A stretch of DNA of 64,000 bases from positions 62,001-126,000 of the forward strand of contig BAABWY010000007.1 in assembly GCA_040367435.1 (NCBI GenBank), read 5' to 3'. Origin of the DNA: Hyphomicrobiales bacterium 4NK60-0047b. Lineage in GTDB: Bacteria > Pseudomonadota > Alphaproteobacteria > Rhizobiales > HXMU1428-3. Shown in pieces: positions 402-62,737 of this stretch. Positions within the stretch are counted from its first letter, which is position 1; the number at the start of each line of letters is the position of its first letter. The translations under genes and the position numbers were made by a program. The notes below the pieces were generated by a model. The model did no database searches. It was not told the origin of the DNA and was given only the letters and a program-made list of their open reading frames with translations.

Positions 402-514
402 CTCTCTCACGGGCCATTCCGCTGCAGAGCAGCGGGCCCTCCGAGAGGCGGCGCTTGCGCCGGGCAGCTAAGCTGCCATGTGCGTGCTCTGAAGTAGAGC
501 ACTCCCTTCTTCGG
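402..514 (+). repeat. Interspersed repeat, family B, complete copy
   Basis: It opens with CTCTCACGGGCCATTC and ends with CCTTCTTCGGG. Between them lie successive hairpins: CCGCTGC-aga-GCAGCGG, GGCGC-tt-GCGCC, GCAGC-taa-GCTGC and GTGCTCT-gaagt-AGAGCAC. The same order of hairpins with other arm sequences is found in the other family B copies of this window. It lies between two divergently transcribed genes. Confidence 0.8.
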
Positions 515-532
515 GTAGTCAGGTTCTATTTC

Positions 533-735
533 TCTCACAGCTATTCTAAGTGCTCATGGCGCTTAGACCTACGAGGTGCAGTTTTTTACAATCAGCTTAC
601 CGCACTCGCTTTGCTCCTTTCGGGCTGATCTTATACGCCGGACACCCATGGCGTCATGCGCTTCAGATTGCCTACCAGCAACCGCGCTTTCTTTGACTGC
701 GCTTCAGATTGCCCACTTGCAACCGCGCTATACAT
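533..735 (+). repeat. Degenerate family B copy with two family A units
   Basis: A second leader (CTCTCACAGCTATTC) is followed by the hairpin TAAGTGC-tcatg-GCGCTTA and by a variant middle module also seen near 57240. Two family A units follow at about 658-690 and 698-728, each with core GATTGC..GCAACC and outer arms GCGC/GCGC. Together with the copy at 402-514 it fills most of the 370-925 gap; no gene is seen there. Confidence 0.7.
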
Positions 736-925
736 ATGGTGCTCAATTAGATATATTCCCCTAACCTATCTTTTATATTTTATTTTTATTCCAGACTTAA
801 TTTTCTGGAATTTTTATAGTGTTAGTTCTTTTGAAATTTGGCAAATTGTTTTTGGCCTAAAGTCTACATTTTTTATTTTACTATTGATCTGTTTTAATCA
901 CGAACCTCATAGGAAGTTTGAAGAT

Positions 926-1360
926 ATGCAAAATAGCTTTTTTCAGAAAACAGATTTAATTCAGATTGATACCTCTCCTTTTTCGTTTCATATGATCACT
1001 TCAAAACTAGATTTTTGGTTGCGAGAGATTGGGGCATCTGAAGGACTTTTGACACTTTTGGTCAAACATACGTCAGCCTCCTTGACCATTCAGGAAAATG
1101 CCGACCCAACTGTTCGGGATGATTTGCTCACGATATTAGATGAGCTTGCACCTGAGACCCGTGACTATCGTCATAACATGGAGGGGCCAGATGATATGCC
1201 AGCTCATATCAAGACCATGCTGACAAACACTACATTATCTATTCCTGTGGTTGATGGAAAGATGGACCTGGGGACTTGGCAGGGTGTTTATTTAATTGAA
1301 CATAGAGCTCATAGAATGCACCGCTCGATCAGGTTATTTTTTGCTGGGACTGATGCTTGA
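926..1360 (+). CDS. yjbQ: YjbQ family protein (UPF0047)
   Basis: A 144-residue protein, matching the usual size (about 138) of the YjbQ/UPF0047 family, which some databases name secondary thiamine-phosphate synthase on the basis of weak activity. Family motifs are present: LLVKHTSASLTIQENADPTV, then the His-rich DYRHNMEGPDDMPAHIK and GTWQGVYLIEHR. The frame is open back to 656, but that part runs through repeat DNA. The ATG at 926 is preceded by AGGAAG at 911 and begins where the family begins. Physiological role is not settled. Confidence 0.9.
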   Translation: MQNSFFQKTDLIQIDTSPFSFHMITSKLDFWLREIGASEGLLTLLVKHTSASLTIQENADPTVRDDLLTILDELAPETRDYRHNMEGPDDMPAHIKTMLTNTTLSIPVVDGKMDLGTWQGVYLIEHRAHRMHRSIRLFFAGTDA

Positions 1361-1390
1361 AGCAAATAGTATGATTTATGATTTTACGGT

Positions 1391-2155
1391 CTAGTCTTCT
1401 CTTCCAACACAAATCAAAAATTCTTGATTGCCTGTTTGCCCTGTTATGGGTGATGGAATCAAACCTATAACATGCCATGACATTTGGTTTTCAAACCAAC
1501 TTGTTACAGTATCTAAAACTACCTGTATGGCTTCCTTGTCTTTCACAATGCCTTTTTTGCCTAAGGCTTTTTTACCCACTTCAAATTGAGGTTTGATAAG
1601 GGCGATAACCCAACCACCTGGCTCAACTAATGTAAGGGGTTGCTCCAGAAGTTTCATTAAAGAAATGAAACTGACATCTACCGTGATGGCATCAATTGGA
1701 TGTTTGAATTCATCTTTAATCAGGGTCCGCGCGTCGCGGCCTTCCATAGAGGTGATACGCTCATCTTCCTTGAGATCTTTATGAAGTTGATCCCGGCCGA
1801 CATCGACCGCATAAACATGGGCAGCTTCATGACCTAATAAAACTTCTGTGAAACCACCAGTTGATGCGCCAAGATCTAGAATGGTTTTTCCCTTACACTC
1901 CATTTCAAACTGCTCTAGAGCATGCGCCAATTTAATCCCTGCTCTTGATACAAAACCTGGAGCTTCTTCTGCTATTTTAATTTCGGCTGTTTCCAACCAT
2001 ATTTGGCCGGCTTTTTTTGTTACCTCACCATCAACCCTCACATGGCCAGATTTAATCAGATCTCTTGCTTTAGATCGTGTCGGCACTAATTTTTTCTCAA
2101 CCATGAGGAGGTCAAGGCGCACCTTTTTGGGATTTGATGGTTGGCTTTTCGACAT
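1391..2155 (-). CDS. tlyA: TlyA family rRNA 2'-O-methyltransferase (hemolysin-A family)
   Basis: 254 residues, normal for TlyA. Residues about 14-75 form an S4 RNA-binding domain (RLDLLMVEKKLVPTRSKARD), followed by an FtsJ/RrmJ-type methyltransferase domain with the SAM-binding motif LDLGASTGGFTEVLL near residue 93. TlyA proteins methylate cytidine 2'-OH groups of ribosomal RNA. In many Rhizobiales this gene sits near dxs; here it stands alone, convergent with yjbQ and divergent from xerC, with repeats in its upstream region. Confidence 0.92.
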   Translation of the reverse strand: MSKSQPSNPKKVRLDLLMVEKKLVPTRSKARDLIKSGHVRVDGEVTKKAGQIWLETAEIKIAEEAPGFVSRAGIKLAHALEQFEMECKGKTILDLGASTGGFTEVLLGHEAAHVYAVDVGRDQLHKDLKEDERITSMEGRDARTLIKDEFKHPIDAITVDVSFISLMKLLEQPLTLVEPGGWVIALIKPQFEVGKKALGKKGIVKDKEAIQVVLDTVTSWFENQMSWHVIGLIPSPITGQTGNQEFLICVGRED

Positions 2156-2170
2156 TTCAATGCTCTGTTC

Positions 2171-2323
2171 TCTCTCACGGCTATTCTATGAGCTGAAGCT
2201 CATAGGCCTCCACTTTAAGGTACTTTAGGTTGCCCACGTGCAACCGCACTGTGCAGCGCTTGCGCCGGGCTTCACTGGCGTTTCGCCATGTCCCCTAGCC
2301 GAAGAGGCTAGGCTCCTTCTTCG
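2171..2323 (+). repeat. Family B copy carrying an embedded family A hairpin
   Basis: Leader CTCTCACGGCTATTC, then hairpin TATGAGCT-ga-AGCTCATA, a family A unit (GGTTGC-ccacgt-GCAACC), the GCGCTTGCGCCGGGC module, TGGCG-ttt-CGCCA and CCTAGCC-gaaga-GGCTAGG, ending CTCCTTCTTCG. The hairpin arms differ from those of the other copies but pair. Confidence 0.8.
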
Positions 2324-2352
2324 TATAGCTCGTTTTTAGTTTTTTATCTTTT

Positions 2353-2485
2353 TTCTCTTACAGCTATTCTTTTTACAAACTCTTTCGGTACCTCATAAAC
2401 AACCATCTGTTTTAATGCTCCTTCGGTTGGCTTTTCTATGCTTCAGATGCCCAATAGGCATCCGCACAAGCAACCGTCGCAGTGA
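2353..2485 (+). repeat. Degenerate family B/A repeat
   Basis: A leader-like CTCTTACAGCTATTC is followed by degraded sequence and a family A unit whose inner arms are GATGCC..GGCATC instead of GTTGC..GCAAC. With 2171-2323 it accounts for most of the tlyA-xerC intergenic region. No gene was seen in that region. Confidence 0.6.
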
Positions 2486-2562
2486 CCGAATAGAGCTTGT
2501 TAATCCTTTTTAGTATATAGTCAATTTGTTTTACATCATTATGATTTGGGAACTTACACCTT

Positions 2563-3510
2563 ATGAATACCGCTTTTGAAAATTGGCCTGTTGAGAAAGA
2601 CTTGAATACGGCTCTTTGTTCATGGAGTGCGTATCTAGAAGATGAGCGCGACCTCGCTCTCAAAACACTTGATAGTTACAAACGAGATATTCGGCAATTT
2701 ATTGGATTTGTTCATCGTTCAGAAGATAAGAAAATAACCCTGGTTGATTTGTCGAACTTGCAGGCACGAGACTTTCGAAGCTTTCTTGCATACCGGCGAG
2801 ATAGCGGTGCTTCTGATCGCTCTGTTGCACGTGGGCTTTCTGCATTGCGGATGTTTTTTAAATATTTAGAACGTCATTTCAATTTTCAAAATTCAGAGTT
2901 ACATTTAATTTCATCTCCGAAGATCCCACATTCTATTCCAAAACCACTTCCTGTTGATAAAGCGCTTGAAAGTTTGGCTTCAACTGATGTGGTCAGGGAT
3001 GTAGCGCCCTGGATAAACGACAGGGATTTAGCTGTGATGCTGCTTTTATATGGGGCCGGGCTTCGTATATCTGAGGCACTTGGCCTCCTAAGGAATGAAG
3101 CTCCCATTAAAGGGGTTACAATTTTAGAGATTACTGGCAAGGGCAAACGTGAGCGCCGAGTTCCTATTTTACCAGTTATTTCTGATGCGATTTCAACTTA
3201 CATTACCAATTGTCCATTTGAACTCGAAGCAAATGAGCCTTTGTTTCGCGGGGAGAGAGGCGGCAAATTATCGCCTCGAATTATTCAACTTTTAATGGCG
3301 CGCTTGCGCCATGCTTTGCAATTGCCAGAGACGGCAACTCCGCATGCTTTGCGACATTCATTTGCAACGCACCTTTTGGGAACCGGAGCTGATTTGCGCC
3401 AGATCCAGGAACTTCTAGGTCATGCCAGCCTTTCAACAACACAAATTTATACTGAAGTTGATCGGGATCAATTGCTTCGTATTTATGATGCTGCTCACCC
3501 GCGAGACTAA
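2563..3510 (+). CDS. xerC: Tyrosine recombinase XerC
   Basis: 315 residues with an N-terminal SAM-like core-binding domain (about 15-110) and a C-terminal catalytic domain. The catalytic residues are visible: Arg in GAGLRISEAL, Lys in GKGKRERRVP, His and Arg in HALRHSFATHLL, His in LGHASLS and the nucleophile Tyr in TTQIYT. Together with XerD it would resolve chromosome dimers at dif near the terminus. Size and the absence of mobile-element neighbours favour the housekeeping enzyme over a phage integrase; XerC versus XerD naming is by resemblance. Confidence 0.9.
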   Translation: MNTAFENWPVEKDLNTALCSWSAYLEDERDLALKTLDSYKRDIRQFIGFVHRSEDKKITLVDLSNLQARDFRSFLAYRRDSGASDRSVARGLSALRMFFKYLERHFNFQNSELHLISSPKIPHSIPKPLPVDKALESLASTDVVRDVAPWINDRDLAVMLLLYGAGLRISEALGLLRNEAPIKGVTILEITGKGKRERRVPILPVISDAISTYITNCPFELEANEPLFRGERGGKLSPRIIQLLMARLRHALQLPETATPHALRHSFATHLLGTGADLRQIQELLGHASLSTTQIYTEVDRDQLLRIYDAAHPRD

Positions 3511-3531
3511 AGTTTTTTTTAGTTTGTTTTC

Positions 3532-3600
3532 TCTCGCGGGCTATTTCTTTTTTAGTGGCGCTTCAGATACCCACAAAGCATCCGCGCAACCGTGCTGGGG
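3532..3600 (+). repeat. Short family B leader plus family A unit
   Basis: TCTCGCGGGCTATTTC is followed by TTTTTTAGTGGCGCTTCA and a family A hairpin (GATACC..GCATCC), then GCAACCGTGCTGG. It directly follows xerC. Confidence 0.6.
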
Positions 3601-3629
3601 TCATATCACTCAAACTGGAATGGACTGAA

Positions 3630-4094
3630 TTACTGCTTGGGGTGAAGATAGAAAGACTGCTTTGTGGGTTGGCGTCTTGTGTCGCGGTAATTATTTTGCA
3701 CTTCAACGCGTAGCAAGCCTGATTCAATAAATATTTTAAGCTCTCTGACATATGAAAAAGAGCTGAAGGTTACGTGCATTTCATTTGAGTTTATCATCGT
3801 CCCTTTCGCGCGACCCCAAATGCATTCTGCTCTACCGCATTTCATAAAGCCACGCACAATCCAAAGAGATGCTGATAGAGGATCATATGATTTAATTGGT
3901 TTTTCACCGCAATTGTAATCAATTTTTAAGCGGACCAGATCTTTTTCTTTGGCGTCTGAGTTTACCCATATTGTAGCTAGAGAGGGTTTTATGCAGGCTG
4001 AAGCTGTTGGTATGTGAGGACCGTTTGGGCCAATTAAGAATAGGGTCGTGAATAAGGCGCTAAGTCCTACATAATAAAATGTATGTGTTTTCAT
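3630..4094 (-). CDS. Secreted hypothetical protein with C-x-W-G motif
   Basis: 154 residues. An N-terminal signal peptide (hydrophobic stretch about 7-25, cut near ASA-C) suggests export. The mature part holds four cysteines, including the pair in MKCGRAECIWGRAKG, followed by alternating beta-type sequence (MHVTFSSFSYVRELKIFIES, LLRVEVQNNYRD). C-x-W-G-x-A segments of this type occur in several uncharacterised bacterial secreted proteins, so a small beta domain is likely. No function can be given. It lies downstream of, and in the same direction as, the small Cys-rich gene at 4189-4425. Confidence 0.7.
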   Translation of the reverse strand: MKTHTFYYVGLSALFTTLFLIGPNGPHIPTASACIKPSLATIWVNSDAKEKDLVRLKIDYNCGEKPIKSYDPLSASLWIVRGFMKCGRAECIWGRAKGTMINSNEMHVTFSSFSYVRELKIFIESGLLRVEVQNNYRDTRRQPTKQSFYLHPKQ

Positions 4095-4188
4095 AATGAA
4101 AACCTCTCATGGTTGTGCTTATAGATTAGCAATGAGAGGTAAAACCTTCATGAATCAATTCAATCAAATGGAAGCGTATTTTGAGGGA

Positions 4189-4425
4189 TTACCGGCCAAG
4201 CCTACTTTGGCAAGAAGCAAAACAGGCGTTTCTTTGTTTGATGCAACTCCCTGTCTGGCCTGATTTAAAACAAGCTTTGGTTCTTGACCGGCAAGATGCC
4301 ATACAAGCTTGGAGAGCTTTCACTTTACTATTAGCTTGTGCTTCAGGCAGGGGGAAAGATTGAGTTGCCAGTGCTGCACCAGCAAATGCTAAAACCCCTA
4401 AAATGATGATCATTCTTTTTTGCAC
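4189..4425 (-). CDS. Small secreted protein with mirror-symmetric cysteine pattern
   Basis: 78 residues. A signal peptide (MIIILGVLAFAGAALA) is followed by a basic mature peptide of about 47 residues. Its six cysteines are spaced C-x3-C-x6-C-x8-C-x6-C-x3-C, symmetric about the centre. This suggests two antiparallel helices linked by disulfides, as in alpha-hairpinin or CX3C folds; that is inference. The family was not recognised. The gene is followed on the same strand by another secreted protein (3630-4094), and its upstream region is an eight-copy tandem repeat. Confidence 0.65.
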   Translation of the reverse strand: MQKRMIIILGVLAFAGAALATQSFPLPEAQANSKVKALQACMASCRSRTKACFKSGQTGSCIKQRNACFASCQSRLGR

Positions 4426-4450
4426 GATAACTGCCCTCTTGCCTTTTTTA

Positions 4451-4770
4451 GTGCCCCTTCAGTTGCCCACTACGCAACCGGGGTAATTTAGTGCCCCTTC
4501 AGTTGCCCACTACGCAACCGGGGTAATTTAGTGCCCCTTCAGTTGCCCACTACGCAACCGGGGTAATTTAGTGCCCCTTCAGTTGTCCACTACGCAACCG
4601 GGGTAATTTAGTGCCCCTTCAGTTGTCCACTACGCAACCGGGGTAATTTAGTCCCCCTTTAGTTGCCTACTACGCAACCGGGGTAATTTAGTGCCCCTTT
4701 AGTTGCCTACTACGCAACCGGGGTAATTTAGTGCCCCTTTAGTTGCCTACTACCAACTGGGGCAAACTGC
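4451..4770 (+). repeat. Eight-copy 40-bp tandem array of family A
   Basis: Units start at 4451, 4491, 4531, 4571, 4611, 4651, 4691 and 4731. Each contains CCCCTTCAGTTGCCCACTAC followed by GCAACCGGGG and AATTTA. The inner GTTGC/GCAAC and outer CCCC/GGGG arms form one hairpin per unit. Units 1-3 are identical, units 4-5 share a C-to-T change, units 6-8 share further changes and the last is degraded. This suggests stepwise expansion from one side. It fills the 4426-4949 gap between divergent genes; the remaining 180 bp is AT-rich with nothing recognised. Confidence 0.95.
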
Positions 4771-4949
4771 TTCATACCCCTTGATGCCTTCTAGCACCCT
4801 TTATATAGCTAATAAATCGATTAATTCACACTACAATATAGTGAATGAACCAAAGCTGAATAGATTTAAATAATATGCTAGAATGAGCCTTCTATGCAAT
4901 AATATCTTTTAGATATTGGATTTTTTATCTTCTTTTCAGGAGCTTAACC

Positions 4950-5588
4950 ATGTTTCACCCTCGCCGTACCTTTCTAAAGGCAAGTGTTTTTTTTAGTGCA
5001 TATATGGCTGGCCAACTCTCTCATTTATCATTAGCGAAAGCCAAAGATGGTGACCTTTTTAAAAGTGGTAATGGTCTTTATAGCCAACCCTGGTTTGAAG
5101 ATGGTTTTCTTGACCTTGGTGAGGAACTTCAATTAGCTGCTGATGAGGGTAAACAACTTGTCATCATTTATGAACAAGAAGGGTGCCCCTATTGCAAGCA
5201 ATTGCACCAGGTTAATTTAAAAAACCCTTCAATTAAGAAATTTATGCAGGAAAACTACAGGGTTATCCAACTTGACATCCGTGGCTCACGCGAAGTTACT
5301 GATTTTGCGGGAAAAACTTATTCTGAAAAAGAATTCTCACGAAAATGGCAAATTAACTTCACGCCAACATTAAGTTTCTTTCCAGCTGATCCTGCTCATG
5401 TTTTAAACAAAAAAGGAAAAGAAGCTGAAGCCTTTCGCCTTACGGGCTTTTGGAAAGTCTTTCATTTTGAAACCGTTTTGCGATTTGTTAAAAGCGGCGC
5501 TTATAAGAAAGACACATTACAAGACTATCTCAATGAGCGAATTAAAGGATTGAAAGAAACTGGGAAGTCTGTGAAAATCTGGGATTAA
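4950..5588 (+). CDS. SoxW-like thioredoxin-fold protein, Tat-exported
   Basis: 212 residues. The N-terminus has a twin-arginine motif (HPRRTFLKA) and a hydrophobic segment, so periplasmic export by Tat is likely. The thioredoxin-like domain holds the redox motif EGCPYCKQLHQ at about residue 76 and the cis-proline loop NFTPTLSFF. This is the pattern of SoxW/thioredoxin_2-type proteins, which keep periplasmic thiols reduced, often for sulfur oxidation or cytochrome maturation. No sox genes are nearby, so the substrate is open. A terminator-like hairpin follows. Confidence 0.85.
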   Translation: MFHPRRTFLKASVFFSAYMAGQLSHLSLAKAKDGDLFKSGNGLYSQPWFEDGFLDLGEELQLAADEGKQLVIIYEQEGCPYCKQLHQVNLKNPSIKKFMQENYRVIQLDIRGSREVTDFAGKTYSEKEFSRKWQINFTPTLSFFPADPAHVLNKKGKEAEAFRLTGFWKVFHFETVLRFVKSGAYKKDTLQDYLNERIKGLKETGKSVKIWD

Positions 5589-5674
5589 CTCGCTTTTCTT
5601 TTCTTCAGTTTATTGTATAAATTTTTTCACTAGAGCATATTTCTTTTGTTTTAAATCATTGGGATGCTCTAAAT

Positions 5675-5720
5675 AGTTGAGGGATGGTCTTTTTTAGGCC
5701 CTTAACTCTATTTTTCTTTT
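5675..5720 (+). terminator. Probable terminator after the SoxW-like gene
   Basis: AGTTGAGGG at 5675 pairs with CCCTTAACT at 5699 (nine pairs, one G-U), followed by CTATTTTTCTTTTTAC. Confidence 0.6.
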
Positions 5721-5852
5721 TACGGCCAATTAATTTTCATATCTAATATATCATGAAAAGAGACATTTGCTTTGTTTTGCGCTCCATTTTCAATTTTGTA
5801 GCGCCCAATTTAAATGACTTAATGAACAAAAGGTGTTAAGAGTAGTATTCGC

Positions 5853-7979: not shown

Positions 7980-7998
7980 ACGCGAAGAGTTTTTTTTC

Positions 7999-14057: not shown

Positions 14058-14172
14058 CTCTCACGGCTATTCCAAGCGCTTATGGCGCTTGGGCCTCCGA
14101 GGGGCGGTGCTAGGCACCGGACGCCAAAGGCGTCATGTCACTCAGCCTGAAAAAGGCTGAGCTCCTTCTTCG
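14058..14172 (+). repeat. Interspersed repeat, family B, complete copy
   Basis: Leader CTCTCACGGCTATTC; hairpins CCAAGCGC-ttatg-GCGCTTGG, GGTGC-tag-GCACC, GACGCC-aaa-GGCGTC and CTCAGCCT-gaaa-AAGGCTGAG; end CTCCTTCTTCG. It begins three bases after the kinase stop codon. It is one of the cleanest copies for comparing hairpin arms. Confidence 0.85.
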
Positions 14173-16521: not shown

Positions 16522-16548
16522 GGGCCATCGAATAAGGGTTTAGACCCT

Positions 16549-16606
16549 TGTGGTGATTTGGCCGGTCGGCTTGCAGCCACATAAAATAACTTGCTAAAAG
16601 GCCGAT
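16549..16606 (+). promoter_or_regulatory. SAM-II riboswitch upstream of metZ
   Basis: The sequence shows the SAM-II layout. Stem P1 forms from TGTGGT and GCCACA, enclosing GATTTGGCCGG and GGCTTGCA, followed by an A-rich linker and TTGCTAAAAGGCC. The final GGCC pairs with GGCC inside the P1 loop, giving the class-defining pseudoknot. A small hairpin, AAGGGT-ttag-ACCCTT (16534-16549), precedes it. SAM-II elements repress methionine synthesis genes in alphaproteobacteria when S-adenosylmethionine is high. The aptamer ends about 120 bp before the metZ start, further than in many known cases. Confidence 0.88.
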
Positions 16607-16726
16607 TGCCCCGGTTTTCCCTAACTTGATTTGGTTGGACCTGTGTCATCGGTATTGGTGGTACTGGTGTGCTGGGTTTTTTATTGCTCACACACTTAAA
16701 TTCAGAGCAATACATAAGGGTTTTCT

Positions 16727-19953: not shown

Positions 19954-20027
19954 CTCTCACGGGCGATGCAGCGTAGCTGCCGCCCTACGAGGTGCAGCGC
20001 TCAGCGCTGACGGCCGTTCGGCCTACG
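19954..20027 (+). repeat. Short family B copy
   Basis: Leader CTCTCACGGGCG; hairpins GCAGC-gta-GCTGC, AGCGC-tca-GCGCT and GGCC-gttc-GGCC. It has the end CCTACG instead of CTTCTTCGG. A bare leader follows at about 20061. It separates the convergent trkH and RND genes. Confidence 0.75.
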
Positions 20028-20103
20028 TTTTTCGAGCACTGCTGATTTTGAGATTTATTTTCTCTCTCACGAGCAATTGCGATAAACAAAGAGTGAACTG
20101 GCA

Positions 20104-33033: not shown

Positions 33034-34524
33034 TTATGCGGCTATTTCGTTTAAGAAATTATCGATTTCTTGTCTTAGACGATCTGCGTCTTGTTCAAGC
33101 TTGGTTGAGGCTTTATGAACTTCTTCTGCTGAAACGCTGGTTTTATCAGCTGAGTGATCTACGCCTGATACAGCGCTGGCTAATTCAGCTGAGTGTGAGG
33201 CTGTTTCTTGCACATTTGAAGAGATCTCACTTGTCACGGCACCTTGTTCATTCATAGCATCAGAAATTGAACTTGAAAGCTTATCAACTTGAGTCATGGT
33301 TTGAGCTATCTCGTTAATTTCTGTTGCCGTATCTTTTGATGCTGCCTGAATCTCTTGAATATGCTTTGCGATCTCGCTGGTTGCCTGACTGGTTTGCTCA
33401 GCTAATGATTTAACTTCTGCAGCTACCACTGCAAAACCTTTACCAGATTCACCTGCTCTTGCAGATTCGATCGTTGCGTTCAATGCTAACAGATTTGTTT
33501 GTTCAGCGATTTCTTCAATTAGGTTAACAACCGTTCCTATGCTCTCTGCCGCTTCGGTTAGCGCCCTTACTCTTGTTGAACTTTGGCGGGCTTGATCTGT
33601 TGCTTTGCGTACAGCTGTAGAGGTGTCTACAACTTGTGTTGAGATTTCAGATACTGAACTGGCCAATTGCTCAGCAGCACCGGCGAGTGATCTTACATTA
33701 TTATCTGCTGACTGGGAGGCTGAGCTTGCTGTGCCGGCGAGCTCAGCTGTATGTTTTGCAATATCTGTAAGCTCAATGGCTGAGCCGGTCATTTGACCAG
33801 CACCTTGACCAACAGCCTTGATGAAGCCATCCATCCGAGATCTAAAACTTTCAGCTATTTCAGTTAATCGTTCGCGGCGCTCTTCTTCATGCCTTACTGC
33901 TGATCTTTTTTGTTCTGATGCCATGCCTTCGGCTTTAGCTGTCGCAGTATTCGCTTCATCAAGCGCTTCACCAACACGGCCTGCCGCTGTTTCCATATTA
34001 CCGACAATCCAGTTTACGCCTTCTTGAGTAATGAAAATGGTCACAAGGTGGATCATGGTGAGAACGATACCAACATCGCCTATGAACGCAGCTGCTGGAT
34101 CTAAAATTGCGGCACTCAAAGTGAAGCCCATGGCGCATACGGCGGCAATTGTTGTCGCTTTTTTATCGCACCAACCAGAAAGTATAGCGATCACTGCTAC
34201 CAGGCCAAACTGCGCTTCAATCTGCAATGGATTACCACGCAGCATAATGATCAACGCGATCATGTTCACAGCCAAGTTCGCACTTGTTATATATCTGGTT
34301 TGCAATTCCATCGGCTGTGTTCTCAACAGGTAGGTGGAATAGACGGTGAGACCGATAGCAAACAGCAACGGGAATGCCGAGGTGTTGAAGTCTGACCATG
34401 TTAGAGGGAAGACATTTGTCATCAAATCCGATGACACATATGCCATGGCAGACAACATCAATGGCAACCACATCATCACGGTGAGGAACAAGACAAAACG
34501 TCTGCGTAATATATTTAAATCCAT
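33034..34524 (-). CDS. Methyl-accepting chemotaxis protein without periplasmic sensor
   Basis: 496 residues. Five or six membrane helices occupy the first 185 residues with only short loops, so no periplasmic ligand domain exists. A coiled coil follows ([17 protein letters not shown]), then the signalling domain. The hairpin tip [20 protein letters not shown] with [20 protein letters not shown] is at about residues 345-385. Such receptors may sense membrane, redox or intracellular cues. No che genes are adjacent. It faces nikO, so no operon link to nickel genes. Confidence 0.92.
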
Positions 34525-43945: not shown

Positions 43946-44022
43946 GTCTCACGGGAGTTTACCGCTGCGCGGTCTTCCCTCCGACTGGGCGGGGCTAGGC
44001 CCCGACGGCCGTTCGGCCTACG
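43946..44022 (+). repeat. Short family B copy ahead of the oxidoreductase gene
   Basis: Leader GTCTCACGGG; hairpins ACCGC-tgc-GCGGT, GGGGC-tag-GCCCC and GGCC-gttc-GGCC; ends CCTACG like the copy at 19954. A degraded echo (GATAGCC-gttc-GGCCTATG) lies at about 44092. Confidence 0.75.
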
Positions 44023-44175
44023 TTTTTTATTCTCGGTAATACGGTTAGTTTCTCTTTGAGATCGCAACCTGTATCTACTCTCTTAGTTCCGATAGCCGTT
44101 CGGCCTATGTCTATGTTCTCGGTGATACGGTCAATTTACTTAATTGACCGTAACCTCCATCGATTATTTTTCTCT

Positions 44176-49085: not shown

Positions 49086-49200
49086 CTCTCACGGGCTATT
49101 CTGCCGCAATAAGCGGCAGGCCCTACGAGGTGCGGCGCTTGCGCCGGACGCCTCTGGCGTCATGTCCCTCAGCCCGAAAATGGGCTGAGCTCCTTCTTCG
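49086..49200 (+). repeat. Interspersed repeat, family B, complete copy
   Basis: Leader CTCTCACGGGCTATTC; hairpins CTGCCGC-aata-AGCGGCAG (GCGGCAG arm), GGCGC-tt-GCGCC, GACGCC-tct-GGCGTC and CTCAGCCC-gaaaat-GGGCTGAG; end CTCCTTCTTCG. It starts 13 bases after the yidC stop codon. Confidence 0.85.
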
Positions 49201-49231: not shown

Positions 49232-49465
49232 TCTTTCACGGCTATTTCTTTTTAGTGGCGCTTCAGGTTGAATTTTTTTGCTTCAGATGCTCACTATGCA
49301 TCCGCAAAGCAACCGTGCTGGTGCTTGGACCTCCGAGGGGCGGGTGCTAGGCACCGGCTATGCGAAGCGCTTCGCCATGTCCTGACGCCGAAAAGGCGTC
49401 ACTCCTTCTTCGGGAGGTGAGTTATGGGTTTTTTATTGCGCTTCAGTTGCCGACTATGAACCGTG
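49232..49465 (+). repeat. Family B copy with family A insert, plus a family A remnant
   Basis: Leader CTTTCACGGCTATTTC, then a double family A unit (inner arms GATGC/GCATC), then family B modules GGTGC-tag-GCACC, GCGAAGC-GCTTCGC and TGACGCC-gaaa-AGGCGTCA, ending CTCCTTCTTCGG. A family A remnant lies at about 49437-49463. Together with 49086-49200 it fills the yidC-engB gap. Confidence 0.75.
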
Positions 49466-57132: not shown

Positions 57133-57147
57133 GTTATTTTCTATTTT

Positions 57148-57297
57148 CTCTCACGGCTATGATTTTTAAATACTCCTTCAGGTTGCCCACTAGCAACCGT
57201 CGCTGCTGAAGCGGCAGGCCCTCTGAGGGGCGCGACTTTTTTTACAATCAACTTATCTGTACTCGCTTTGCTCCGTTCAGGCTGAGCTCCTTCTTCG
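57148..57297 (+). repeat. Family B copy with family A insert
   Basis: Leader CTCTCACGGCTATG, a family A unit (GGTTGC-ccacta-GCAACC), then CGCTGCTGAAGCGGCAGGCC, the variant middle module shared with about 580-625 (TTTTTTACAATCA, ACTCGCTTTGCTCC) and end CTCCTTCTTCG. A bare leader echo follows at about 57332. Confidence 0.75.
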
Positions 57298-57379
57298 TTT
57301 AGGATGTTTGATGTTGAGCCTTTTATCTTTCACGGCTATAATTATGTCATGCTACTTATTCAAATAGTGAGAGATGAAG

Positions 57380-57466
57380 CTAGTTCTGTTTTTTGGTAAA
57401 TTATTTGCCCTTTATTGGACATTTCTATGGACATTCCTATAGATATTTGATAAAGGGAAGGACTAG
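57380..57466 (+). ncRNA. Candidate structured RNA upstream of rpsU
   Basis: Three nested stems: CTAGTTCT (57380) with AGGACTAG (57459), CCCTTTAT (57408) with ATAAAGGG (57450), and TCTAT (57424) with ATAGA (57439). Smaller hairpins follow before rpsU, such as ATTGG-ctcggt-CCAAT at 57469. It may be an independent small RNA or the rpsU mRNA leader. No known family was recognised. Confidence 0.4.
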
Positions 57467-57558
57467 AGATTGGCTCGGTCCAATAAGGGCTTATGAGCAC
57501 CTTGGTAGATTCCTTAAAAATTTGGAATTTGGGACCTTAATATTTGAGAGGTAGACGC

Positions 57559-57780
57559 GTGCAAGTACTCGTTCGCGATAACAATGTTGATCAAGCGCTG
57601 AAAGCGCTGAAAAAGAAAATGCAACGTGAAGGCATTTTCCGTGAGATGAAACTTCGTAATTTTTACGAAAAACCTTCTGAAAAACGTGCTCGTGTGAAAG
57701 CTGAAGCTATTCGCCGCGCTCGCAAACTTGCACGCAAAAGAGCTCAACGTGAAGGTTTAGTTCCTGGTCGTTCTAGATAG
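57559..57780 (+). CDS. rpsU: 30S ribosomal protein S21
   Basis: 73 residues starting at GTG 57559 ([20 protein letters not shown]). The frame is open to TTG 57544, but GAGAGG at 57545 and the family start support 57559. The basic tail [20 protein letters not shown] is typical. It follows purK in many Rhizobiales. A terminator lies at 57955. Confidence 0.96.
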
Positions 57781-57954
57781 GTATCTTGCACACTAAATCT
57801 TATTAGGTTTAGTGATACTCGAACTTGATCTAACTATTAAGACTGATTTTCCTATAAAATTGGGCTTAAAGATTGAATTGATTGGCCTTGCTTTAATTGT
57901 TTTGATTAATTGACTCAACTTATAGACACAAAAATTCTGATAAGATGATTTTCT

Positions 57955-57988
57955 AATAAGCTCGCATATGTGGGCTTATTTTTGTTTG
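57955..57988 (+). terminator. Probable terminator in the rpsU-TPR gene gap
   Basis: AATAAGCTC pairs with GGGCTTATT (one G-U), followed by TTTGTTTG. The rest of the 57781-58123 gap is AT-rich; a weaker hairpin CACTAAA..TTTAGTG lies at about 57791. Confidence 0.7.
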
Positions 57989-58123
57989 TAGGCTTGATTG
58001 TTTAAAAAACTCAAAAATTATCTAGTTATTTGGACTGATTTTCTTAATGATCAAATTTGAGTCTTAATCTTTCATTATATTACTTGATGGTTGTATTGCT
58101 TTGAATTAAGTGGTGTTTTTCTC

Positions 58124-58960
58124 ATGAGATCAGTTGCTGGTTTTTTTATTGTTATTTCTTGCATTTCGGTCCTGTCAGGCTGCCAAGCCCCTGTTATCAG
58201 TGGTGAGCAAAATTATGCAACTTTACAACCTCTCTCAACTAAACAACATGAAAATAACATTCTCTCACTCACCAGTGTGATTGAGAAAAGCCCTGATGAC
58301 CCGAGTGCCTTTAATATGCGCGGAACTGCTCATGGAGACGCGCGCAGCTATTCCAAAGCTATTGCTGACTTTTCGAAAGCTATTGAAATTGATCCTAGTT
58401 ACTATCAGGCCTTTGCGAACAGAGCTCTTATTCATGTTCGATTAAAGCAATTTGATAAAGCTATGAGTGATTTTGACCAGGCTCTAACACTTTCAACCGA
58501 ATATCCAGTTGCTTATTTTGGTCGTGGCATGCTTTACCGCATTAAGAACAAGCAAGCATTGGCTTTGGCTGATTTCAATAAAACCCTTGAGTTTGCCCCT
58601 GACCATGCTGGTGCTTATTTCAATCGAGGTGAGATTTATTTAGCACGCGGAGATAATGCTTTGGCATTGGCCGATTTTAACAGTGCGATTGACCTGCAAC
58701 CAAACTCTTTTGCCCCTTATTATGGACGTGGTCTAAGTCGCATAGCTTCTGGAAATTACAAAGAAGCCTATGATGATTTTTACGTGGCGGCACGGCGGAA
58801 AAAAGGCTTCTATCAGGCTTGGACATATCGTGGTCTTGCTGCGGAAAAACAAAATGCGCCGGAAGAGGCATCACGTGCCTATCAACGCGCATTATCAATC
58901 AACCCTCATTACAAACCGGCGATTGAAGGCTTGAAGCGTGTGAAAGTTAAAAGTAGCTGA
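58124..58960 (+). CDS. TPR-repeat lipoprotein
   Basis: 278 residues from ATG 58124 (frame open to 58091). A lipoprotein signal with lipobox LSGC at about residue 23 predicts membrane anchoring. At least five tetratricopeptide repeats follow, for example YSKAIADFSKAIEIDPSYYQ, FDKAMSDFDQAL and ALALADFNSAIDLQPNSF. It resembles NlpI-like envelope scaffolds. Partner proteins are unknown. It is convergent with irr. Confidence 0.9.
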   Translation: MRSVAGFFIVISCISVLSGCQAPVISGEQNYATLQPLSTKQHENNILSLTSVIEKSPDDPSAFNMRGTAHGDARSYSKAIADFSKAIEIDPSYYQAFANRALIHVRLKQFDKAMSDFDQALTLSTEYPVAYFGRGMLYRIKNKQALALADFNKTLEFAPDHAGAYFNRGEIYLARGDNALALADFNSAIDLQPNSFAPYYGRGLSRIASGNYKEAYDDFYVAARRKKGFYQAWTYRGLAAEKQNAPEEASRAYQRALSINPHYKPAIEGLKRVKVKSS

Positions 58961-58997
58961 TAAATAATTTTCTGGATAAAAGCGTAACGCTCTAGAG

Positions 58998-59447
58998 CTA
59001 TTTTTTTGGTCTGAGACGAACAACAATATCTACACCAGCGATTTCCATTCCTTCAGGAGCTTCTGGTAAGCCTGAGACAGAGAGGGCAGAATTCGGTATA
59101 TCCAAAAGTTCGGCATTTTCTTCTAAATAGAAATGTTGGTGATCTGACATATTCGTATCAAAATAAACCCGGGTGCCTACTAATGCCACTTCTCGTAATA
59201 ACCCTGCATCACGAAACTGGTTTAGAGTATTATAAACAGTAGCCAACGACACTGGAATTTTATGCTCAACTGCTTCTTCATGCAAAATTTCCGCACAGAC
59301 ATGACGATCACCATTTTTGAATAGCAAATCTCCTAACGCAACACGCTGGCGAGTTGGTCTCATGCCTGCTGAGCGTAATTTCTCAGACATATCGATAAGA
59401 TTGTTCTTAGAGACTTCAAATTCTGATGTATTTGTCATGTTATCCAT
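58998..59447 (-). CDS. irr: Iron response regulator Irr (Fur family)
   Basis: 149 residues. Winged-helix domain MRPTRQRVALGDLLF to VSLATVYNTLNQFRDAGLL, then SDHQHFYLEENAELLDIPN, where Fur proteins have an HHDH segment. The sequence and the position beside fabA are typical of Irr, a haem-responsive regulator that controls iron genes in Rhizobiales. A clear iron-control-element operator was not seen upstream. ATG 59438 is an alternative start. Confidence 0.9.
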   Translation of the reverse strand: MDNMTNTSEFEVSKNNLIDMSEKLRSAGMRPTRQRVALGDLLFKNGDRHVCAEILHEEAVEHKIPVSLATVYNTLNQFRDAGLLREVALVGTRVYFDTNMSDHQHFYLEENAELLDIPNSALSVSGLPEAPEGMEIAGVDIVVRLRPKK

Positions 59448-59779
59448 GGCCCATTAAATTAAGTGCTCCTATCAATCGGGGCACACTAAAGTTTTTTTGT
59501 GCTTTTAAAACACAATCATGGCAAAAAATATTTAAAAAAACTAGCAATGTTATATTGCTTTGTTTTATGTTGCATTTGTAATATGTTACAAAAACGTTAA
59601 AAACATCACGTGTTATTAAAACTGCCTCTTTTGGAGGTTTTGTAATTATGTTACCAGCAACTGTTTTAAAGGCAGTCGTGAACAGCAAAATTATAGTCTG
59701 AATTGCCGTGTATGTAATGTAAAATTGTTACAAAACGACTGAATTACTATCTATATAACAAAAATGACGGGGTGCATCA
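59448..59779. other. Divergent upstream region, irr / fabA
   Basis: 332 bp, AT-rich, with several TGTTACA/TGTAACA-like words (about 59584, 59728) near the fabA side. They may be regulator sites, but no defined family could be assigned. No gene seen. Confidence 0.35.
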
Positions 59780-60295
59780 ATGGCGGATCGCCAATCCAAT
59801 TATAGCTATGAAGAACTTTTAACATGCGGACGGGGTGAACTATTTGGGCCAGGGAATGCTCAACTTCCTTTGCCTCCTATGCTTATGTTTGATCGCATTA
59901 CCGAAATCAATGACAATGGTGGTGAATTTGGTAAGGGATTTATCCAAGCTGAGTTTGATATTAAGCCTGATTTATGGTTTTTCCCGTGTCATTTTGAAGG
60001 TGACCCTGTGATGCCTGGTTGTCTTGGTTTGGATGCTTTATGGCAATTAACAGGCTTTTTCCTCGGATGGCTTGGTGAACCTGGCCGTGGCCGTGCGATC
60101 TCAACTGGCGAGGTTAAATTTACAGGCATGGTGTTGCCGACGACAAAATTAGTGACTTATGAAATTAATATTCAACGCCTCATTTTACGCCGCCTTAAAC
60201 TTGCTGTCGCTGAAGGTGTTGTGAAAGCTGATGGAGAGCCCATTTTCCATGCAAAAGATTTGCGTGTGGGCTTATTTGGCGGAGACGAAGCTTAG
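59780..60295 (+). CDS. fabA: 3-hydroxydecanoyl-ACP dehydratase/isomerase
   Basis: 171 residues, hot-dog fold. The active-site His lies in [20 protein letters not shown], with the Asp nearby. FabA dehydrates and isomerises the C10 intermediate, starting anaerobic unsaturated fatty acid synthesis with FabB, which is encoded next. Standard order irr-fabA-fabB-fabI. Confidence 0.97.
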
Positions 60296-60446
60296 AGTGT
60301 TGATTTTGAGCAAAGTGCTCATGACATGAGTGTTTTACAAAAATAGCGTTGGCAGGTTCTTTAAAATTTAGGTAGAACCTATCAAAAATTGATTGTGTTT
60401 GGCAGCTTCTCCTGTGTGAAGATGGGCCGATAGATAAGGAATAGAC

Positions 60447-61661
60447 ATGAGACGCGTTGTCATTACAGGTATGGGGATTGTCTCCAGCATTGGTAACAAT
60501 AGAGACGAAGTTTTAGATAGTCTCCAAAATTGTAAATCTGGTATTAGCAGAGCTGAAAAATATGCTGAGCTTGGGTTTAGAAGCCAGGTGGAAGGCGCGC
60601 CAACACTCGACGCTTTATCTTTGGTTGATCGTAAAACGAAACGTTTTATGGGCATGGGCGCTGCATGGAACTACGTCGCCATGGAAGAAGCCATTGCACA
60701 AGCTGGTCTTGAAGAAAAAGAGATTAGTCATGAGCGTACTGGTCTGATTATGGGCTCTGGTGGTCCATCTGCTAAAGCAATTGTCAAAGCTGCCAATACG
60801 ACCTTAGAACGGGGCCCTAAAAAAGTTGGTCCGTTTGAAGTTCCAAAATCAATGTCGAGTACAAACTCAGCGACTTTGGCAACACCTTTTAAAATTAAAG
60901 GTATCAACTATTCTATTTCATCAGCCTGTTCGACTTCGAGCCATTGTATTGGCAATGCGGTTGAGCAAATTCAATGGGGCAAGCAAGATGTGATGTTCGC
61001 TGGTGGTGGTGAAGAGCTTGACTGGACTTTATCTGTTTTATTTGATGCGATGAATGCTATGTCATCTAACTTTAACGACACTCCTGAGCGTGCTAGCCGG
61101 GCTTATGATGCTAACCGTGATGGCTTTGTGATTGCTGGTGGTGCTGGTGTATTAGTTCTTGAAGCTCTTGAACATGCTCAGGCTCGCGGTGCGAATATTA
61201 TTGCTGAGGTTATCGGTTACTGTGCTAACTCTGATGGGTTTGATATGGTGGCGCCTTCTGGTGAGGGAGCAATGCGCTGCATGAAGATCGCGCTTGAGGG
61301 TGTTAATGACAAAATCGATTACATTAACCCGCACGGAACCTCAACACCTATTGGTGACATAAAAGAAATTGAAGCAATACAAGAGGTCTTCGGTGAAGAT
61401 ATGCCGCCAATCTCAAGCACCAAATCATTAACTGGCCACTCTCTTGGTGCTGCTGGTGTTCAGGAGGCGATTTATTCGCTCTTAATGCTGCAAAATAACT
61501 TTATTTGCGAATCTGCTCACATTGATGAGCTTGATGAAGCCTTTGCAAGCGTTCCAATTGTTCAAAAACGCCAAGATGTGCCTCTTAACGCTATCATGTC
61601 AAATAGCTTTGGGTTTGGTGGAACAAATGCAACATTAGTGATGAAAAAATTTGACGGCTAA
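60447..61661 (+). CDS. fabB: 3-oxoacyl-ACP synthase I
   Basis: 404 residues. Catalytic Cys in [14 protein letters not shown], His in [11 protein letters not shown] and the Lys/His pair in [15 protein letters not shown]-terminal [13 protein letters not shown]. FabB elongates cis-3-decenoyl-ACP. It lies 151 bp after fabA. Confidence 0.97.
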
Positions 61662-61724
61662 GTAACCCGCTAAGTTTTATCTATTAATCAATTGAAAATA
61701 TTAAATAATTTAGGCTGTAAGCAG

Positions 61725-62564
61725 ATGACTGATCCTGTAAATTCAACAGATATTGCAACACCTGGCCCTATGATGGCGGGTAAAAAAGGTTTGATTATGG
61801 GCGTTGCCAATGATCGTTCAATCGCATGGGGCATTGCTCGTGTTCTGGCTGGGCAAGGCGCTGAACTGGCTTTCACTTACCAAGGTGATGCCTTTGGACG
61901 CCGTGCTATCCCGTTAGCTGAATCTGTTGGTTCTGAAATCATTGAGAGTTGTGATGTAAACGATATCGCGACCGTAGATAATGTATTTAATGTGATTGGT
62001 GATAAATGGGGTGAGCTTGACTTTGTTGTTCATGCTCTTGCCTTTTCAGACCGCAATGAACTGAAAGATCGTTACTGCGATACTAGCCGTGAGAATTTCA
62101 TCAACACCATGGTGATTTCTTGTTTCTCATTTACCGAGATTGCAAAACGCGCTGCGCCTCTCATGAAAAATGGCGGTAGCTTACTTACTCTTTCTTATGC
62201 TGGTGCGCAAAAGGTTGTGCCTTGCTATAATGTGATGGGTGTTGCAAAAGCTGCGCTCGAGACCAGTGTTAAATATTTGGCTACAGACCTTGGACCGGAC
62301 AACATTCGCGTGAACGCTATGTCTGCAGGCCCGATGAGAACATTAGCTGGCGCAGGTATTTCAGATGCGCGCTCAATGTTTAATTTCCAACAACAACATT
62401 CGCCTCTTAAACGCACTCCTAAATTGGATGACGTTGGCGGTGCTGGCCTTTACCTTCTCTCTGACCTTTCTGGCGGTGTTACTGGTGAAGTGCATTATGT
62501 TGATTGTGGGTATAATACTGTGTTCATGCCTGACTTAGAGTCACTGAAATCGACTGGGTATTGA
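61725..62564 (+). CDS. fabI: Enoyl-ACP reductase (NADH)
   Basis: 279 residues from ATG 61725; a TTG at 61692 opens the frame earlier. NAD-binding GVANDRSIAWGIARVLAGQG, the catalytic Tyr/Lys pair in CYNVMGVAKAALE and AGPMRTLAGAGI identify the classic FabI. It reduces enoyl-ACP in fatty acid elongation and completes the fabA-fabB-fabI cluster. Confidence 0.96.
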   Translation: MTDPVNSTDIATPGPMMAGKKGLIMGVANDRSIAWGIARVLAGQGAELAFTYQGDAFGRRAIPLAESVGSEIIESCDVNDIATVDNVFNVIGDKWGELDFVVHALAFSDRNELKDRYCDTSRENFINTMVISCFSFTEIAKRAAPLMKNGGSLLTLSYAGAQKVVPCYNVMGVAKAALETSVKYLATDLGPDNIRVNAMSAGPMRTLAGAGISDARSMFNFQQQHSPLKRTPKLDDVGGAGLYLLSDLSGGVTGEVHYVDCGYNTVFMPDLESLKSTGY

Positions 62565-62588
62565 TAGCCTAGAGCATTTCTCTATTTT

Positions 62589-62737
62589 CTCTCACGGGCT
62601 ATTGGTTTTTAGTGGCGCTTCAGGTTGCCTACCAGCAACCACGCTACTTCGCTGCGGGCCCTCCGAGGGGCGGCGCTTACGCCGGGCAGCTCTCGCTGCC
62701 ATGTCCTGACACCGAAGTGGTGTCACTCCTTCTTCGG
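62589..62737 (+). repeat. Family B copy with family A insert
   Basis: Leader CTCTCACGGGCTATT, a family A unit (GGTTGC-ctacca-GCAACC), then CGCTGCGGGCCCTCCGAGGG, hairpins GGCGC-tta-CGCC, GGCAGC-tctc-GCTGCC and TGACACC-gaagt-GGTGTCA, ending CTCCTTCTTCGG. Arms of the last hairpin differ from those of all other copies but pair fully. Confidence 0.85.

Follow-up and report, generated by a model that had tools for sequence, protein, structure and literature searches.

The spread of REP-like repeats and the upkeep of their palindromes comprise a standing question, which is raised by a non-coding element of ~110 bp scattered through the 64,000 nucleotides of DNA analysed here (the window). In the initial annotation, copies of this element were described as sharing a frame in which hairpins of fixed order carry different and always complementary arms, and this was taken to imply either selection on the folded nucleic acid or a copying mechanism based on it. 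The element family offers material for tests of such alternatives, namely two species, hundreds of copies, visible hairpin replacement, a fixed polarity that follows replication, and a genome in which no Y1 transposase or reverse transcriptase has been found.

The element is a series of several hairpins, connected through conserved linkers (GGCTATTC, CCTCCGAGGGGCGG, CATGTCC and CTCCTTCTTCG; Table 1, where the family-A hairpin is CTTCAGGTTGCC..GCAACC). The frame motif CCCTCCGAGGGGCGG (up to 3 mismatches) has 9 matches in the window against 0.38 expected, two of which, at copies 57219 and 62659, are the palindromic motif read again from the minus strand, and the frame motif CTCTCACGGGCTATTC has 7 against 0.36 expected, one of which lies on the minus strand at 34337, outside the family. 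Together with a reading of the sequence, which agrees, these matches bear out the shared frame and the arms originally listed. The covariance model R1, built from 23 copies, recovers 9 window copies at E≤0.01. Of the copies originally listed, the one at 57148 retains no more than its opening part and its tail (E=0.33). Three features had been missed: at 532-695 a degenerate copy, at 3531 a remnant, and in the element an outer stem that covaries; the outer stem reads CTC/GAG, GTC/GAC or ATC/GAT, and in other genera CGC/GCG or CGT/ACG.

Table 1. Copies of the element in the window, with the arms read together with their complements and the state of the locus in the congeneric species G003.
Feature	Position	Strand	Evidence	Arms	Locus in G003
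Complete element	404..513	+	R1 125.8 bits, E 1.4e-28; DNA fold z -4.26	copy 402: CCGCTGC/GCAGCGG, GGCGC/GCGCC, GGCAGC/GCTGCC, GTGCTCT/AGAGCAC	ortholog 97% identical
Domain 1 of 404..513	outer stem 404-406 with 443-445; stem b 411-414 with 436-439; hairpin 1 419-435				
Rest of 404..513	module 2 449-462; module 3 463-477; ATGTGC linker 478-483; module 4 484-502				
Pyrimidine-rich tail of 404..513	503-513				
Degenerate or composite copy 3' of the first element; inserted CAATCAGCTTACC..GGCTGATC hairpin	532..695	+	R1 32 bits, E 3.6e-6		largely conserved; one of two family-A hairpins behind the copy missing
Element with family-A hairpin inserted after hairpin 1	2172..2323	+	R1 50.4 bits	copy 2171: TATGAGC, CCTAGCC; module 4 CCTAGCC/GGCTAGG	kept
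5' remnant (CTCTCGCGGGCTATT), then family-A hairpin	3531..3596	+	motif match with 2 mismatches; no R1 match		contents differ
Complete element	14058..14172	+	R1 105.7 bits; DNA fold z -7.48	hairpin 1 CAAGCGC, module 2 GGTGC/GCACC, GACGCC, module 4 CTCAGCC	two elements ~1.4 kb apart
Short variant, ends early in ACGGCCGTTCGGCCTACG hairpin	19954..20034	+	R1 35.5 bits, E 5.3e-7		full-length element
Short variant, ends early	43946..44033	+	R1 30.6 bits, E 7.9e-6	outer stem GTC/GAC	
Complete element	49086..49200	+	R1 116.5 bits	hairpin 1 CTGCCGC, GACGCC, module 4 CTCAGCC	domain 1 replaced wholesale, 3' half alike
Second element in tandem; family-A hairpins in domain 1; modules 2-4 present	49232..49412	+	R1 41 bits, match 49282-49412	GGTGC/GCACC, TGACGCC	absent
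Derived copy; first part and tail kept, other hairpins fill the middle	57148..57297	+	R1 11.3 bits, E 0.33; frame motif match; sequence		
Modules 2-4, family-A hairpin in domain 1	62589..62736	+	R1 91 bits	GGCAGC, TGACACC; module 4 TGACACC/GGTGTCA	

The hairpins are real and their arms are paired beyond chance. In an alignment of 150 rows, 96.4% of 4606 cells are paired and two-sided changes occur in 29 of the 32 structure pairs, and the covariation score was reached by none of 500 shuffles, either with this fitted alignment or with an unfitted one of 23 rows, for which the number of pairs with two-sided change was reached by 2/500 shuffles and that of further pair types by 17/500. The claimed whole-arm covariation also survives a tree-simulated null, 12 of the 13 significant column pairs being structure pairs; 20 of the 32 structure pairs miss E≤0.05 in this test, many since they hardly vary. 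Decay of one ancestral sequence, which would have explained the differences between copies otherwise, is rejected because 30 perfectly paired hairpin-1 arm types are found among 108 perfect copies. Arm types connected by single base-pair steps form networks with 36 edges for hairpin 1 and 20 for module 4 (14.1 and 6.3, respectively, after column shuffling).

The window copies are part of a genome-wide family with an estimated ~250-450 members; the exact core is matched 168 times in the genome and 0 times in a reversed control, and 172 of 182 copies are intergenic relative to mechanically called open reading frames. Recently duplicated dispersed copies were sought among the 182, and because no pair exceeds 92.4% identity (over at least 95 bp, neighbours within 600 bp excluded), these copies show no sign that whole elements transposed in a recent burst. 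The element occurs in all 8 congeneric genomes, and R1 has matches in 14 of the 121 genomes sampled from the order. Among 142 genomes of the class, its matches are confined to the own genome and a single genome from another order (3 weak matches). Counts per genome are lower bounds, since scoring covered 31 or 26 candidates per genome for the order and the class and 150 in two other searches. Diverged relatives are found in other families of the order. Spread by plasmids was dismissed, plasmid records containing no match to the element, and a single pattern match labelled "Thermoleophilia" (L060) lies beside a tRNA-like stretch and looks like chance.

Between copies, the hairpin types assort almost freely. 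Mutual information between hairpin 1 and each of modules 2, 3 and 4 (83, 71 and 75 of the 150 rows, rare types dropped) is at the level of shuffled data; hairpin 1 and its stem b are linked, and weak linkage is seen between modules 2 and 3 and between the outer stem and module 4, the observed values being reached by 21 and 26 of 500 shuffles, respectively. Both flanks of 49 of the 150 copies are present in the fetched G003 stretches, with a model match there for 46, and removal of repeat use of the same G003 copy leaves 43 orthologous sites, which are selected for strong matches and for presence of the element in both species. The flanks at shared sites are 80-100% identical, and a hairpin has been replaced at 24 of the 43 sites (4 of the 24 from gaps alone), the replacements affecting hairpin 1 at 18 sites, module 3 at 14, module 4 at 10 and module 2 at 2, with 96 two-sided changes from one Watson-Crick pair to another in the replaced modules. 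At the 19 sites without replacement, 30 stem changes are one-sided and 3 two-sided. Much of the covariation between copies is whole-hairpin exchange and less of it site-by-site compensation. Given these one-sided changes and the replaced hairpins, copying based on the fold, one half of the original proposal, fits better than selection on the fold, the other half, though at the unswapped sites 3.9% of stem positions changed against 10.5% in the flanks, a result favoured by the choice of strong matches. The slower change of the stems could mean selection on resident copies, even if ascertainment favours it. The composite copy L141:4901-5047 faces an empty site in the related species (L224); this is the only clean empty site seen, beside one missing tandem copy, and most of the compared sites, chosen for holding elements, are occupied in both species. 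L141:2501 and L119 were discarded as empty sites, their alignments being poor outside the shared flanks.

Base-pair covariation among dispersed repeats, however strong, does not on its own point to a functional RNA, and weighing G·T against A·C mismatches is of help in separating such cases. Helices with exactly one non-Watson-Crick pair contain 41 G·T, 51 A·C and 34 other mismatches in the own genome (G000), 18, 42 and 25 in G003, and 5, 8 and 9 in 36 further rows (5 from the congener G004, the other 31 spread over six genomes that belong to other genera); in all, 64 G·T stand against 101 A·C, a sum of counts that are not independent, as the G000 and G003 rows share ancestry. In 7 tRNAs from the fetched stretches (152 pairs), the control counts are 11 and 0. 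Counted over all cells, G·T amounts to 126 and A·C to 77, with 59 of the G·T cells in one column beside a bulge (A2 column 12); leaving out helix 2 gives 60 and 71. Because G·T is no more tolerated than A·C, the folded molecule is probably DNA, the constraint acting on DNA or its copying and not on sense-strand RNA, which is dismissed on this count and its tRNA control. The A·C excess in G003 (42 vs 18, p 0.003) may also be expected from wobble pairing on the opposite strand, that is, from antisense RNA. Rfam 15 yields 2 matches in the window at gathering scores, both elsewhere than the element, and none at E≤1 for four element loci, in line with the initial failure to recognise the consensus.

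Nearly all copies read one way along their contig, and this orientation is not driven by genes. It agrees within contigs for 175 of 182 copies, for 95 of the 100 listed among the 168 exact core matches, and for 130 of 134 listed copies in G003. Neighbouring genes relative to the element are (+,+) in 48 cases, (-,-) in 40, (+,-) in 61 and (-,+) in 15, convergent gaps being the commonest position (61/164), and mechanically called open reading frames of at least 150 aa run with the element in 259 cases and against it in 225. In 172 of 182 cases, the strand that carries the element is the T-rich one, and the single 16S rRNA gene detected, on contig C1, shares its strand with the majority of the elements there. 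GC skew is weak outside C1 and the first 343 kb of C2, and there the leading strand was assigned mainly from T skew. From skew and this 16S gene, we infer that the common direction is probably that of the replication fork. The replication-linked orientation had not been seen in the initial annotation.

The Y1_Tnp profile (PF01797) has no match in the own genome (control positive in 5 of 14 named genomes) and is found in 1 of 8 congeneric genomes, G003, with two matches; the profile of reverse transcriptase (RVT_1, PF00078), the enzyme expected for a retroelement, group II intron or retron product, likewise has none in the own genome (control positive in 3 of 14) and is present in 2 of 8 genomes of the genus. 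The family suggests a DNA-level spreading process that is not tied to the usual repeat-moving enzyme, and in our interpretation it is a single-stranded-DNA element that resembles REP/BIME but is new in its design. REP, BIME and REPIN sequences are described as short, intergenic, palindromic repeats with hundreds of copies and composites, thought to be mobilised by RAYTs (PMC3116915; PMC3733652). The element shares with GTAG REPs and REPINs the short, palindromic, extragenic and composite form and the high copy number, and differs from REP/BIME/REPIN in its ~110 bp of ordered hairpins with conserved linkers, its replication-locked orientation and the reassortment of hairpins; unlike GTAG REPs and REPINs, it has no Y1 transposase (RAYT) detected in its own genome. 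Of 150 copies, 26 contain GTAG, for the most part within the hairpin of module 4 (CTGAAGTAG..) and in 25 of the 26 away from the ends; no unpaired GTAG foot tag was found, and the alignment shows no conserved GTAG. CGTC REPs are mostly alphaproteobacterial and apparently lack a dedicated transposase; each is a single stem of 8-9 bp that bears an unpaired CGTC (or TGTC/CCTC) at its end and usually a CCA tail (PMC3733652). They have the host class and the apparent absence of a transposase in common with the element, which however is built of multiple hairpins; its CGTC (81 of 150 copies) nearly always belongs to the 3' arm of module 3 or module 4 where that arm is GGCGTC-like, and other arm types are devoid of it. 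The Bordetella BRE, a GC-rich repeat of 75-91 bp found singly or in short tandems, does not follow the fork in its orientation, as its authors state (PMC3110155), in contrast to the replication-linked element. IS200/IS605 transposons (IS608/ISDra2) are tied to the lagging-strand template and recognised by secondary structures at their ends (PMC6006769); the orientation bias of the element (175/182; T-rich strand 172/182) is similar, with fork direction inferred, whereas its genome contains no detected Y1 HUH transposase and its internal hairpins vary and reassort. MITEs, which derive from DDE transposons, have terminal inverted repeats with target duplication. For a candidate long form of the element with CTAGAGC...GCTCTAG-like ends, 7 of 182 copies pass a loose test (two of which look spurious) against 37 of 4000 random places, and a strict pattern yields none. 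RIME and ABC, cited in PMC2873474, are mosaic palindromic repeats of rhizobia, of the same order, and the likeness to them is one of description; the element has no match in plasmid records, and R1 has matches in no more than the above 14 of 121 genomes.

We consider the chances evenly poised that the family is a high-copy DNA element of the REP/BIME kind that acts as folded single-stranded DNA on the lagging-strand template and exchanges hairpins. The sense strand, read in the fork direction, would be the lagging-strand template and transiently single-stranded, would fold there, and would be copied or inserted in one orientation, exchanging hairpins with sister copies, probably through template switching or through gene conversion, the breakpoints of which would fall within the linkers. 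Copies no longer pairing would propagate less, so that the pool of arms would stay complementary, and resident copies would gather mostly uncompensated mutations. The weak GC skew, the sparse empty sites, the identity ceiling of 92.4%, the slower stems, the A·C excess in G003, the weak linkages between modules and the structure pairs that miss E≤0.05 count against this explanation. A bolder and more doubtful version sees a new DNA population of freely recombining hairpin cassettes, copied via the lagging-strand template by host replication or another factor without a dedicated transposase, the copying itself keeping the palindromy; if true, new perfectly complementary arms would evolve without site-by-site selection.

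An extinct or off-stage mobile element, that is, a non-autonomous REPIN- or IS200/IS605-like single-stranded-DNA transposon whose Y1 transposase has since been lost and whose hairpin swaps are homologous recombination, seems rather unlikely. The orientation bias resembles the targeting of the lagging-strand template described for IS608/ISDra2 (PMC6006769). The two Y1_Tnp matches in G003 and the limit of 92.4% likeness among examined copies also fit, and recombination between two copies in the same orientation would explain the 14058 locus, but Y1_Tnp is found in one congener and the element in all eight, the GTAG foot tag is absent, and freely reassorting multiple hairpins are not the REPIN form. 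KOPS and Chi sites bind host proteins, and a comparable replication-polarised chromosome signal, whose orientation is kept for segregation or repair, would be consistent with the 95-97% orientation bias, with occupation of the same sites in two species (sites picked for holding elements) and with stems changing more slowly than flanks. Such a signal is nonetheless improbable: the linkers and not the arms should then constitute it, yet the arms change and stay paired, an element with ~110 bp of structure would be a large site of this type, and tandem copies exist while one composite copy is missing from the related species.

The readings that place the function in RNA are less probable still. 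Covariation with conserved linkers, intergenic location most often between convergent genes (61/164), T-rich flanks and an A·C excess that fits opposite-strand RNA are what a structured RNA family (sRNA or 3'-UTR element) with its fold under selection would show; it is made very improbable by the lack of preference for sense-strand G·T (64 vs 101; tRNA control 11 vs 0), an orientation that ignores gene direction, the absence of Rfam matches at E≤1 for the four loci, and hundreds of copies with unlinked hairpins. Scarcely credible are bidirectional terminators or mRNA 3'-end stabilisers spread via recombination, for although 172/182 copies are intergenic, convergent gaps are commonest and the ends are pyrimidine- and T-rich, the replication-linked orientation would be left unexplained, 15 copies lie in divergent gaps, and L006, L008 and L009 are located directly behind what appears by eye to be a hairpin-plus-T terminator.

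Complete copies of the element follow a single order: an outer stem (CTC/GAG), stem b (GGGC/GCCC or GGC/GCC), hairpin 1, modules 2 and 3, a CATGTCC-like linker, module 4 and the tail CTCC(C)TTCTTCG. The covariance model R1, derived from 23 copies and a structure drawn by hand, detected nine copies in the window at E<=0.01, besides remnants. The hairpin arms listed in the initial annotation are present in the window on direct reading, and its proposal that opposite arms covary between copies is upheld across the genome by both shuffling and a tree-based null. In an alignment of 150 copies (149 distinct) that was fitted to the structure, 96.4% of 4606 cells are paired, versus 74.7% after shuffling and at most 46.9% after sliding, and two-sided changes occur in 29 of the 32 structure pairs. 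An unfitted 23-row alignment gave a covariation score of 0.436, compared with 0.164 shuffled and at most 0.095 slid; two weaker measures were matched by 2 and 17 of 500 shuffles. An R-scape-style test written for this analysis, with the null simulated on a FastTree tree (a single tree being a rough null if hairpins reassort), yielded 13 significant column pairs: 12 coincide with base pairs of the structure, and the 13th is displaced by one column in module 3. The remaining 20 structure pairs lie above the threshold of E<=0.05, many of them because their columns hardly vary.

The element was also compared at 43 orthologous sites in the relative G003, with flank identity of 80-100%; these sites were chosen for strong model matches in both genomes, so rates of presence and absence cannot be read from them. 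A module with at least two two-sided pair changes, or with gaps, was counted as replaced. Unchanged, slightly changed and replaced cases numbered 17, 8 and 18 for hairpin 1, 19, 22 and 2 for module 2, 22, 7 and 14 for module 3, and 16, 17 and 10 for module 4. Gaps contribute to 5 of the 18 replacement calls in hairpin 1, to both in module 2 and to 6 of 14 in module 3; of the 24 sites with any replacement, 4 rest on gaps alone. Replaced modules carry 96 two-sided changes from one Watson-Crick pair to another, 12 other two-sided and 22 one-sided changes; in slightly changed modules, one-sided changes number 55 and two-sided changes 19. Where no module was replaced (19 sites), the changes among 463 pairs were one-sided in 30 cases and two-sided in 3, with 0.7 of the latter expected by chance; divergence there is 3.9% in stems versus 10.5% in the 100-bp flanks.

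Whole copies differ as well: G003 has an empty site opposite one composite copy of the own genome and lacks the tandem copy at 49232. At 14058, where the window has a single copy, G003 carries two same-direction elements about 1.4 kb apart, and the 3' flank of the single copy matches that of the second G003 element. The intervening segment, absent from the window, contains short ORFs in a mechanical list (e.g. 103 and 160 aa); the difference reflects a deletion or an insertion, possibly by recombination between elements.

Hairpin 1 types are independent of the types of modules 2, 3 and 4, the observed mutual information being reached by 325, 268 and 175 of 500 shuffles, respectively (83, 71 and 75 of 150 rows kept, types with fewer than four copies dropped). 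Hairpin 1 type is tied to stem b of its own domain (0 of 500 shuffles), and weak linkage joins module 2 to module 3 (21 of 500) and the outer stem to module 4 (26 of 500). No near-identical dispersed pairs occur among 182 copies in fetched stretches of the own genome, which suggests that recent spread of whole elements counts for less than exchange at sites already occupied.

Pairing could be maintained in RNA, where G-U is tolerated and A-C is not, or by a DNA constraint or copying process, which is indifferent to the distinction. In helices whose pairs are all Watson-Crick with a single exception, the exceptions divide into G·T, A·C and other mismatches as 41, 51 and 34 in the own genome, 18, 42 and 25 in G003, and 5, 8 and 9 in 36 further rows (31 from other genera, 5 from the congener G004). 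Since A·C is not below G·T in the elements, versus 11 G·T and 0 A·C in seven tRNAs from the fetched stretches, RNA-type selection does not act on the sense strand. The lean to A·C recurs among one-sided ortholog differences (35 versus 9, mostly G to A) and could reflect either strand-biased mutation or wobble pairing in the complementary strand. Seven DNA foldings gave z-scores from -2.7 to -7.5; the stems were recovered whole or nearly so in five copies from two genera (404, 14058, 49086, one from G004 and one from G032) and on the reverse strand of copy 404, and a different fold was obtained for the L187 copy from G018.

The majority direction of the contig is followed by 175 of the 182 copies (with:against 43:3 on C1, 32:2 on C2, 22:0 on C3, 16:0 on C5, 12:1 on C6 and 31:0 on C7, plus six small sets). 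The same holds, independently of the model, for 95 of 100 listed places (of 168, contigs C1-C3) of the exact core TCTCACGGN{0,1}CTATT. In G003, 130 of 134 listed copies (of 150) agree in direction. According to mechanical ORFs, the neighbouring genes are both co-directional with the copy in 48 cases and both opposed to it in 40, and 61 copies lie in convergent and 15 in divergent gaps; gene direction therefore does not explain the orientation. Within its stretch, the strand that carries the element is the T-rich one for 172 of the 182 copies and the G-rich one for 121. Where GC skew is strong, in C1 and at the beginning of C2, the G and T skews concur; the single 16S gene found, in C1, has the direction of the elements. 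GC skew passes from about -0.15 to near 0 at about 343 kb of C2, T skew and element orientation continuing unaltered, and is likewise small in the C3-C12 stretches. A GTC outer stem is present in four of the seven misoriented copies. In a loose test for CTAGAGC-like ends, two of these seven were positive and a further two showed just the left end. Long forms with such ends and extra flanking stems are listed in the table.

By established replication geometry, a sense strand read in the direction of the fork serves as lagging-strand template. We infer that a single-stranded-DNA process at the fork acts on the element; acting on the sense strand as lagging-strand template, it would explain the orientation, the need for hairpins, the indifference to genes and the exchange between copies. 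Y1 transposases and reverse transcriptases were sought in the own genome and not found.

In the 3.47 Mb own genome, R1 has at least 150 matches, every one at E<=1.2e-8 (150 of 996 candidates scored). The exact core occurs 168 times (reversed control, 0) and recovers 125 of 182 model matches and 4 of the window's 9, from which we estimate about 250-450 copies in total. Elements lie at or next to the ends of several contigs, and further copies are therefore probable in the assembly gaps. DNA similarity finds the family in all 8 genomes of the genus, counting the own genome, and in none of 13 others of the order, three of which (G008, G013, G018) are positive with R1. With the model, positives number 14 among 121 genomes sampled from the order and cover 9 of 84 genera, with one weak case outside the order in a search of 142 genomes of the class. 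Judged by reading, relatives' elements have the same plan with other arms, and their outer stems covary further (CGC/GCG, CGT/ACG). Among named genome records, 24 of 25 stretches come from four MAGs labelled Hyphomicrobiales, Methyloligella or Rhodomicrobium; the remaining one looks like a chance match.

RIME and ABC elements are mosaic palindromic repeats of Rhizobiales, and KOPS and Chi are sites bound by host proteins. The consensus, which the initial annotation did not recognize, has no Rfam match either, at gathering scores over the whole window or at E<=1 for four loci. Literature searches, in which most subscription journals were outside the coverage, listed no paper with a title or opening of the abstract that describes the family, and a description may exist elsewhere; the comparison literature comprised PMC3733652, PMC3116915, PMC2873474, PMC4666352, PMC3110155 and PMC6006769.

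Two other hairpin repeats accompany the elements. Those of the second family, GCGCTTCAGRTTGCC..GCAACCGCGC and variants, stand alone, in tandem or inside domain 1. In some copies the middle modules are replaced or interrupted by a third hairpin (CAATCAGCTTACCGCACTCGCTTTGCTCCTTTCGGGCTGATC and variants). A putative XerC-type tyrosine recombinase ORF, judged by reading the sequence, is flanked by elements at 2172 and 3531.

Coordinates of features in and around the elements (window positions unless a contig or fetched stretch, L, is named)
Feature	Location	Strand	Remark
Second repeat family	656-735, 2430-2480, 3550-3590, 49255-49320, 62605-62645		
Third hairpin	585-635, 57240-57280; also L030		
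SAM_alpha (SAM-II) riboswitch	16540-16617	+	Rfam RF00521, 67.8 bits
Putative XerC-type ORF	2563-3510		
G003 segment at locus 14058	L163 ~4424-5695 (G003 C6 ~118100-119400)		
Elements in or beside contig ends, own genome (G000)	C3:4-117, C6:202045-202155, C7:196031-196144, C9:66973-67092		
Long forms with CTAGAGC-like ends	L088:2501, L082:8645, L078:2501, L122:2501, L068:2501		extra flanking stems
Forms resembling these	L141:2501, L100:2501		look related by eye
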